From Acidovorax sp. KKS102 (GTDB lineage Bacteria > Pseudomonadota > Gammaproteobacteria > Burkholderiales > Burkholderiaceae_C), in the NCBI RefSeq assembly GCF_000302535.1, contig NC_018708.1, positions 186,001 through 250,000 on the forward strand: a stretch of DNA of 64,000 nucleotides. Direction: 5' to 3'. A model generated the notes under the pieces. The model saw nothing but the letters and a program-made list of their open reading frames with translations, had not been told where the DNA came from and did no database searches. This document shows positions 55,882-57,324 of the stretch, piece after piece (position 1 is the stretch's first letter; each line of letters opens with the position of its first letter). The translations under genes were made by a program, and so were the position numbers.

Positions 55882-56658
55882 TCACTGCTCTGCGAACGCG
55901 CGCTCGATCACGAAGTCGCCAGGCTTCGTGGTGTTGCCTTCATTGAAGCCGCGCTCTTCCATCATGTGCTTGAGGTCGCGCAGCATCTCGGGGCTACCGC
56001 AGATCATCACGCGGTCTTCGGCGGGGTTGAGCGCGGGCAGGCCCAGGTCGCGCGCGAGCTGGCCGTTCTCGATGATCGTAGTGACGCGACCCTGGTGCTT
56101 GAAGGCCTCGCGCGTCACGGTGGGGTAGTACTTGAGCTGCTTGCTGACCATCTCGCCCAAGAACTCGTGCTTGGGCAGTTCTTCGGTGATGTAGTCGTGG
56201 TAGGCCAGCTCCTTCACCTCGCGCACGCCGTGCACCAGGATGACTTCCTCGAACTTCTCGTAGGTCTCGGGGTCGCGGATCAGGCTCAGGAACGGTGCCA
56301 CACCCGTGCCGGTGGAGAGCATGTACAGGCGCTTGGCAGGCAGCAGGTAGTCGATCAGCAGCGTGCCCGTGGGTTTTTTGCCGACCACGATGGTGTCACC
56401 CACCTTGATGTGCTGCAGGCGCGAGGTCAACGGGCCATCGGGCACCTTGATGGACAGGAACTCCAGGTGCTCTTCGTAGTTGGGGCTCACGATGCTGTAG
56501 GCGCGCAGCAGGGGCTTGCCGTTTTCGCCGCGCAGGCCAATCATCGTGAAATGGCCGTTGGAGAAGCGCAGCGCGGTGTCGCGCGTGGTGGTGAAGGAGA
56601 AAAGGCGGTCCGTCCAGTGGTGGACCGTCAGGACGCGTTCGTCAAGAAAGGCGCTCAT
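55882..56658 (-). CDS. fpr: Ferredoxin-NADP reductase
   Basis: 258 residues, the plant/bacterial FNR fold. The FAD-binding RAYSIVSPNYEEHLEF and the NADP-binding LSTGTGVAPFLSLIRDPE are clear, as is MICGSPEMLRDL. The terminal region FVIERAFAEQ is typical of subclass I bacterial FNR. It would shuttle electrons between NADPH and the adjacent ferredoxin, suggesting the reductase neighbour needs reduced ferredoxin. Start ATG 56658. Confidence 0.94.
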   Translation of the reverse strand: MSAFLDERVLTVHHWTDRLFSFTTTRDTALRFSNGHFTMIGLRGENGKPLLRAYSIVSPNYEEHLEFLSIKVPDGPLTSRLQHIKVGDTIVVGKKPTGTLLIDYLLPAKRLYMLSTGTGVAPFLSLIRDPETYEKFEEVILVHGVREVKELAYHDYITEELPKHEFLGEMVSKQLKYYPTVTREAFKHQGRVTTIIENGQLARDLGLPALNPAEDRVMICGSPEMLRDLKHMMEERGFNEGNTTKPGDFVIERAFAEQ

Positions 56659-56724: not shown

Positions 56725-57324
56725 CTACAGCGCAATGTTCAGGCCTGAAAGCTTGTGGCTCACAACCCTCCATTGTTCCGCATCTGGCAAAGCCGCTTTT
56801 CTTTTGGTGATTGTGGGGAGCGTGGGCGCCAGCTTTTTGTTGAACTGCAGAAAGATTTCCATGCCTTCGGGCAGGTCGTCTTCGGCATAGATGGCGTTGG
56901 CCGGGCACTCCGGAATACACACCGCGCAGTCGATGCACTCGTCTGGGTCAATGACCAGGGATGGAACCTGCTCAAGGTTTTTTCGGGGTCGCGCAAGTCC
57001 CTTTTCGGGGTGTGATGCAAGGCGCGGTGTGCAGCCAATAGCCCGTGCTATTGGCAAGCGCCGCAACGCTGCAGGCCGCCCGAAAAGGGACTTGCCCGAA
57101 GGGTTGGAATGAAATCGGGTGATTGGACGCCCCGGCCGCTTGCATGGGCATGAGCCCATGCGGCGCATCCGAAGCATCCACTCATCCCGATTGCATTCCA
57201 ACGCGATCCCCGACAAGACCTTGAGCAGGTTCCCAGGCCCCTCCTTGAAGCAATCGACCGGGCACACATCGACGCAGTCGGTGTACTTGCACCGAATGCA
57301 TGCGTCCGTCACAACGTGCGTCAT
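56725..57324 (-). CDS. fdxA: 7Fe ferredoxin gene with an internal in-frame insertion
   Basis: 199 residues, where FdxA-type ferredoxins have about 107-112. Residues 1-30 (MTHVVTDACIRCKYTDCVDV then CPVDCFKEGP) and 122-199 (from LVIDPDECIDCAVCIPECP) are normal. About 90 foreign residues lie between them and come from an inverted-repeat element (56955-57237). In this family each cluster takes cysteines from both halves: C9, C17 and C140 for the 3Fe-4S cluster, and C21 with C130, C133 and C136 for the 4Fe-4S cluster. The insert must therefore be looped out or the protein is inactive. The frame has no stop in the insert. GAGGAG precedes the ATG at 57324. It is expected to donate electrons to the divergent reductase at 57500. 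Confidence 0.88.
   Translation of the reverse strand: MTHVVTDACIRCKYTDCVDVCPVDCFKEGPGNLLKVLSGIALECNRDEWMLRMRRMGSCPCKRPGRPITRFHSNPSGKSLFGRPAALRRLPIARAIGCTPRLASHPEKGLARPRKNLEQVPSLVIDPDECIDCAVCIPECPANAIYAEDDLPEGMEIFLQFNKKLAPTLPTITKRKAALPDAEQWRVVSHKLSGLNIAL
56955..57237. mobile_element. Structured inverted-repeat element inside fdxA
   Basis: Core 56963-57233 (271 bp). Terminal inverted repeats: 56963-56993 pairs with 57202-57233, beginning GGAACCTGCTCAAGG on the plus strand. Inside are two side arms: 56993-57009 with 57079-57095 (GCAAGTCCCTTTTCGGG, perfect 17 bp), enclosing the hairpin GCCAATAG / CTATTGGC (57034-57055), and 57103-57119 with 57186-57202 (16 of 17), enclosing GCATGGGC / GCCCATGC (57142-57161). 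The whole folds as a symmetrical cruciform. CCAGG lies at both edges (56955-56959, 57233-57237), a possible 5-bp target duplication. It encodes no transposase, so it resembles a MITE-like non-autonomous element. Confidence 0.75.

Follow-up and report, generated by a model that had tools for sequence, protein, structure and literature searches.

A palindromic, probable IS5-type MITE lying in frame in a ferredoxin gene of Acidovorax sp. KKS102

Palindromic mobile DNA lying in frame within protein-coding genes has, as far as the accessible text of PMC10969869 goes, been reported mainly for Rickettsia. The Rickettsia palindromic elements (RPEs) are described in that text as about 150 bp long, with nearly half of the 44 elements of R. 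conorii located inside open reading frames (ORFs). Two further groups of short bacterial repeats are relevant here, namely the MITEs of the IS5 family and the REP/REPIN-type repeats.

The window analysed in this study is a 64,000-nucleotide stretch of the genome of Acidovorax sp. KKS102 (NC_018708.1, positions 186,001 to 250,000), and it contains a palindromic element within a 7Fe ferredoxin gene, fdxA (Table 1). The element resembles the RPEs of the accessible text of PMC10969869 in being palindromic, in carrying an open frame and in lying in frame in unrelated protein genes; unlike the RPEs, it has a core of about 268 nt, 2 of its 23 own-genome copies (those in fdxA and in a DUF1801 gene) have been shown to form an in-frame fusion inside a protein, and an insertion sequence (IS) with matching ends has been found. 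It shares with bacterial IS5-family MITEs a short length, the lack of a transposase gene, terminal inverted repeats in common with an IS, a high copy number and, in a part of its copies, a small target duplication, but differs from them in its two long internal arms, which covary between copies. As with REP/REPIN-type repeats, one of its hairpins, the first, also stands elsewhere without the rest of the element (matches to query positions 43–130) and may represent a building block shared among different families of palindromic repeats; the full element is set apart from REP/REPIN repeats by long terminal inverted repeats and a preference for TNA. No description of this element family was recognised in a literature search conducted at the level of titles and abstracts, with few subscription journals covered. 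Very probably, the element is a MITE of IS5 type, and its open frame now and then gives rise to fusions that are tolerated, much like the Rickettsia elements.

Structure, copies and likely partner insertion sequence

The sequence-only reading of the window had described a palindrome of 271 nt with terminal inverted repeats of about 31 nt and two nested arms, and the three repeat pairs detected, together with folding, bear this out. The outer inverted repeat (56963–56988 with 57208–57233) measures 26 nt (92%) and reaches 31–32 nt at 91% in a BLAST self-match, while the inverted repeats of the first and second arms measure 21 nt (95%) and 17 nt (94%), respectively. Both strands of the element fold into the outer stem and two arms, the RNA fold reaching −187.9 kcal/mol (z −12.7) and the DNA fold a z of −12.9, with 0 of 200 shuffles as good in either case.

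Table 1. Features of the fdxA locus and of the inserted element (positions in the window)
Feature	Position	Strand	Basis or remark
fdxA (7Fe ferredoxin) frame with insert, 199 aa plus stop	56725..57324	-	ATG at 57324; start chosen from congener genes
Parts of the fdxA product (residues): N part 1–30; insert-coded about 31–121; C part 122–199
Co-directional ORF downstream of fdxA, ferredoxin-NADP reductase-like by eye	55882..56658	-	ORF list; name from reading the sequence
IS5-type MITE copy, 271 nt with GG...CC ends; 269-nt core GAACC...GGTTC	56963..57233	.	Aligned with 22 other copies of the own genome
Outer stem, left arm (terminal inverted repeat)	56963..56993	+	Repeat search, BLAST self-match, RNA and DNA folds
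Outer stem, right arm (terminal inverted repeat)	57203..57233	+	Repeat search, BLAST self-match, RNA and DNA folds
First arm	56989..57099	+	56989–57009 pairs with 57079–57099; inner hairpin about 57034–57055
Second arm	57103..57202	+	57103–57119 pairs with 57186–57202; inner hairpin about 57142–57161

The search for other copies and empty sites that had been proposed along with that description returned, by BLAST, 22 further full or near-full copies in the own genome (79–90% identity), giving a total of 23, and found fdxA empty at all 16 congener loci compared. At E ≤ 1e-10, 30 of 35 other genomes of the genus gave matches, and none of the 24 genomes taken from other families in the order did. 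At E ≤ 1e-8, 37 of 299 genomes of the family matched, the own genome included, spread over 26 of 141 genera, and several of the 37 showed one hairpin only; copy numbers in other genomes are lower bounds, as the best 12 or the best 2 candidates per genome were scored. The core pattern occurs in at least 120 stretches of named genomes, and among the 80 matches listed most belong to Acidovorax and Paracidovorax, with one from Simplicispira and a few from broadly named MAGs. A plasmid search gave one partial match, covering 31% of the query, on a Comamonas plasmid, and a phage search with the element gave no match. Four own-genome loci (L024, L025, L028 and L029) are other long hairpin repeats that contain the element's first hairpin, and the outer stem of L028 and L029 starts GGATGTCCTGCATCAC.

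From 201 model hits, 137 near-full and finally 98 distinct copies from several genomes were collected, of which 91 are 266–270 nt long with inverted repeats at both ends; the core length of the family is mostly 267–270 nt. Even the longest collected copy, at 296 nt, is too short for a transposase, in keeping with the earlier statement that the element lacks a transposase gene. One copy with an empty core (L105) was left out of the count of flanks (97 copies), and this copy and the 296-nt copy (L148) were left out of the pairing and frame sets (96 copies).

All 32 genomes searched have fdxA, and at each of the 16 congener loci examined for empty sites it is an uninserted gene of 109 aa, the ferredoxin reading ...CFKEGPEYLVIDPDEC... 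or nearly so. For the other insertions, 17 of the 22 further copies were compared with 7 congener genomes, and empty homologues were aligned for 13 of the 17 (26 alignments, some with extra gaps). Relative to the empty site, the net gain beyond the core is 3 nt in L003, L020, L022 and L023, 4 nt in L010 and L015, and 0 in L004 and L016, with extra gaps in others. A TNA flank is present on the left in 60, on the right in 70 and on both sides in 53 of the 97 copies. The same trinucleotide stands on both sides in 32 of the 97 (shuffled mean 13.9, maximum 25, in 2000 shuffles that ignore relatedness, some of the copies being one insertion in different species with the same flanks), and the other 65 are without identical flanking trinucleotides. 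A short target duplication of 3 nt (TNA) is characteristic of the IS5-family group. The CCAGG direct repeat at the edges of the fdxA insert, previously likened to a target duplication, was rejected as such: the duplication typical of the family spans 3 nt, and the left CCAGG belongs to the gene itself, since 4 of 10 uninserted congener genes have the complement, CCTGG, at the same place.

A likely partner has been found in a congener (G021), which has an IS, about 876 bp long and present three times, with the same ends as the element, AGAACCTGTTCAARATCTTTT. In locus L175, the two ORFs of this IS give hits to PF13340 and PF01609, which are domains found in IS4/IS5-type transposases. The transposase was detected in 8 of 29 genomes searched, with three identical full-length copies in G021, one near-full copy in G010 and partial or broken copies in the others, and was not found in the own genome. 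As the ends are common to an IS bearing PF13340 and PF01609, and as TNA flanks and empty sites are present, the element is a MITE of an IS5-family element, and the earlier suggestion of a non-autonomous mobile element holds, as further copies, empty sites, the TNA preference and the ends shared with an IS5-family IS show. Its mobility in the own genome is past or unproven, since searches there returned no partner IS. End-pattern matches in the own genome comprise the ends of element copies, a relic (L128) and two places with 3 mismatches. Searched alone against plasmids, the element end gave weak matches (E 0.06–10), many at IS5-family transposases of unrelated genera, which serve as a lead only. 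The relic L128 (G000:C1:4491591) is about 53 nt long and consists of both element ends with almost no interior. At about 1124–2271 of L175, an element copy (G021:C1:262042-262310) adjoins the IS with the same ends.

In-frame fusions in ferredoxin and other proteins

The minus-strand frame of fdxA is open across the element, which lies between the two cysteine motifs; the earlier claim that the gene is split at this place, stays open and gains about 90 residues agrees with the 199-aa minus-strand frame read from 57324. The net gain is 270 nt (199 aa here versus 109 aa in congeners), so that about 90 extra amino acids are encoded in the middle of the ferredoxin. Solved ferredoxin I chains match the 199-aa product in two stretches (query 3–33 and 123–194) with the insert between them, both ferredoxin halves retain their cysteines, and over its 77 residues the C part shows 100% protein identity and 96% DNA identity to the corresponding part in a congener (G009). 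The ends of this element copy read G/GA..TC/C, as in 6 of 98 copies, without a TNA duplication, and the same is true of the copy in the DUF1801 gene (L017). A second fdxA is intact in this genome and is 97–100% identical in 10 of 10 genomes; the window fdxA is therefore the less constrained of the two paralogues, and with an intact second gene both a dead gene and a tolerated loop are possible. Structure prediction of the fusion gave a mean pLDDT of 38, and the uninserted control (P0006) reached only 55, both too poor for a judgement; at low confidence, the insertion point is predicted to lie in a turn between strands 26–28 and 33–35 of the control. The paper returned by a search on fdxA essentiality (PMC2984482) concerns, in its accessible part, a 2[4Fe-4S] ferredoxin.

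When the 199-aa product was searched against about 5.8 billion proteins, an approach that by design picks up open-frame cases only, three clusters of FdxA with the insert in frame were returned: P0001 (97%, 21 members, the own genome's protein possibly among them), P0002 (92%, 8 members) and P0003 (84%, 2 members, one residue shorter, with a different junction). The window protein and P0002 differ in 3 of 108 ferredoxin residues and in 13 of 91 insert residues. P0003 ends in the ferredoxin sequence of another congener lineage (L084, itself empty); this, together with the one residue less, suggests that the element may have entered fdxA twice, independently, at one and the same position. At the sequence level, the in-frame ferredoxin fusion is genuine and recurring.

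A search with the insert only returned DUF1801 proteins, namely P0121 (37 members), P0122 (18 members) and P0123 (3 members), as well as other proteins. In the own genome, the L017 copy lies in frame inside the DUF1801 domain, with a Pfam match that spans the insert (residues 87–272), and the net gain in this gene is also 270 nt; the site is uninserted in two congeners (L353 and L354), and the corresponding locus of G024 is rearranged and thus unusable for a rate comparison. Between P0121 and P0122, 22 of 113 flank residues and 8 of 93 insert residues differ. In these DUF1801 fusions the insert is more conserved than its host, the reverse of the situation in fdxA, and repeated insertion or gene conversion may be the reason. 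P0140 (DUF3429) and P0148 (NMT1-like) look, by eye, to be further in-frame hosts. In P0131 (6 members), the element peptide links RelE-type and HTH domains in one frame.

Competing readings and a proposed mechanism

The sequence-only reading had also offered a structured RNA insert, which would fold in the fdxA mRNA and be spliced out or bypassed by the ribosome, or would act as a regulatory RNA. The RNA fold of the fdxA strand is indeed very stable, and the proposed covariance test showed strongly covarying arms: for the 92 predicted pairs in 96 copies, Watson–Crick pairings make up 94.2%, two-sided changes number 698 against a mean of 167 and a maximum of 202 with partners shuffled (200 shuffles, a control that ignores the relatedness of copies), and pairing falls to 23–29% when partners are slid by 1–3 columns. 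The mismatches, however, comprise 103 G.T, 90 A.C and 128 others after G.T-majority pairs are set aside, and because a constraint on one RNA strand would favour G.U, the near-equality of G.T and A.C suggests that a palindrome is being maintained in DNA and speaks against an RNA function, although the signal could be blurred if copies are transcribed in both orientations. An Rfam search returned two miRNA-family hits only, which score 27.1 and 27 bits where the families' gathering scores are 80 and 268, and several copies apparently disrupt the genes in which they lie. Removal of the fdxA insert at the RNA or ribosome level is thus not supported, and a structured RNA or self-removing insert is considered highly improbable.

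Two further readings concern the open frame. A protein-inserting element under selection, with a frame kept open because its fusions bring a benefit or at least have to do no harm, as has been proposed for the RPEs, would account for in-frame FdxA fusions in three clusters (the own protein possibly included), one of them of another lineage and with another junction, for the small ferredoxin divergence of P0002 relative to its insert, for DUF1801 fusions in frame in diverged proteins and for the two further hosts identified by eye. Yet the frame is open in 48 of 96 copies, against null means of 56.7 and 55.6 under random placement of the same substitutions; this is no excess of openness. Moreover, fdxA relatives with the element and a broken frame exist (P0004, P0031 and P0035, identified by reading, sequencing errors being possible), and other genic copies of the own genome are apparently disruptive, lying in a 133-aa ORF (L004) and in TonB-receptor-like (L016), deaminase-like (L023) and hydrolase-like (L010) ORFs named by eye; the protein search, in turn, could return open cases only. 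A selected inserter is accordingly judged unlikely. The chance-level openness and the broken relatives, along with the second, more conserved fdxA, fit a plain pseudogene, in which the insertion would have killed the window fdxA, its frame being open by chance and only for a short time. Against this stand the retained cysteines, the recurrence of the fusion in several clusters and the C part that is identical to that of G009 in protein at 96% DNA identity, the last of which a recent insertion would also give; a pseudogene is a real possibility, though a somewhat doubtful one. Chance and gene redundancy account for the fdxA fusion as well as function does.

In the preferred reading, that of an IS5-type MITE with occasional tolerated fusions, an element bearing IS5-family ends would be moved in trans by such a transposase, presumably that of the IS with matching ends, and would insert preferentially at TNA. 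Canonical insertion of a 268-nt core would add about 271 nt, so that an in-frame product would need a change in length or junction, and the 270-nt net gains in fdxA and the DUF1801 gene would represent such changes. The insert of 90 codons would then be translated, and would be tolerated mainly because fdxA is one of two paralogues. Matching of the arms would be maintained at the DNA level, either through a process such as template-switch correction, acting on imperfect palindromes, or because the palindrome as DNA is under selection. A bolder version, drawn from sequence comparison and rather improbable as a whole, is that this MITE of Acidovorax and its kin would be an RPE-like protein inserter with an IS5-family partner, repeatedly and independently hitting the same FdxA turn and the same DUF1801 site and leaving working proteins with a 90-residue loop, its arms matched by palindrome correction at the DNA level.

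The element is a case from a genus other than Rickettsia, and it comes with a likely source of transposase, numerous empty sites and two fusions within genes. The small size of the ferredoxin makes it testable whether such inserts leave working proteins, and the heavy two-sided change, with G.T and A.C mismatches about equally frequent, provides data on how the arms of long palindromes are kept alike.
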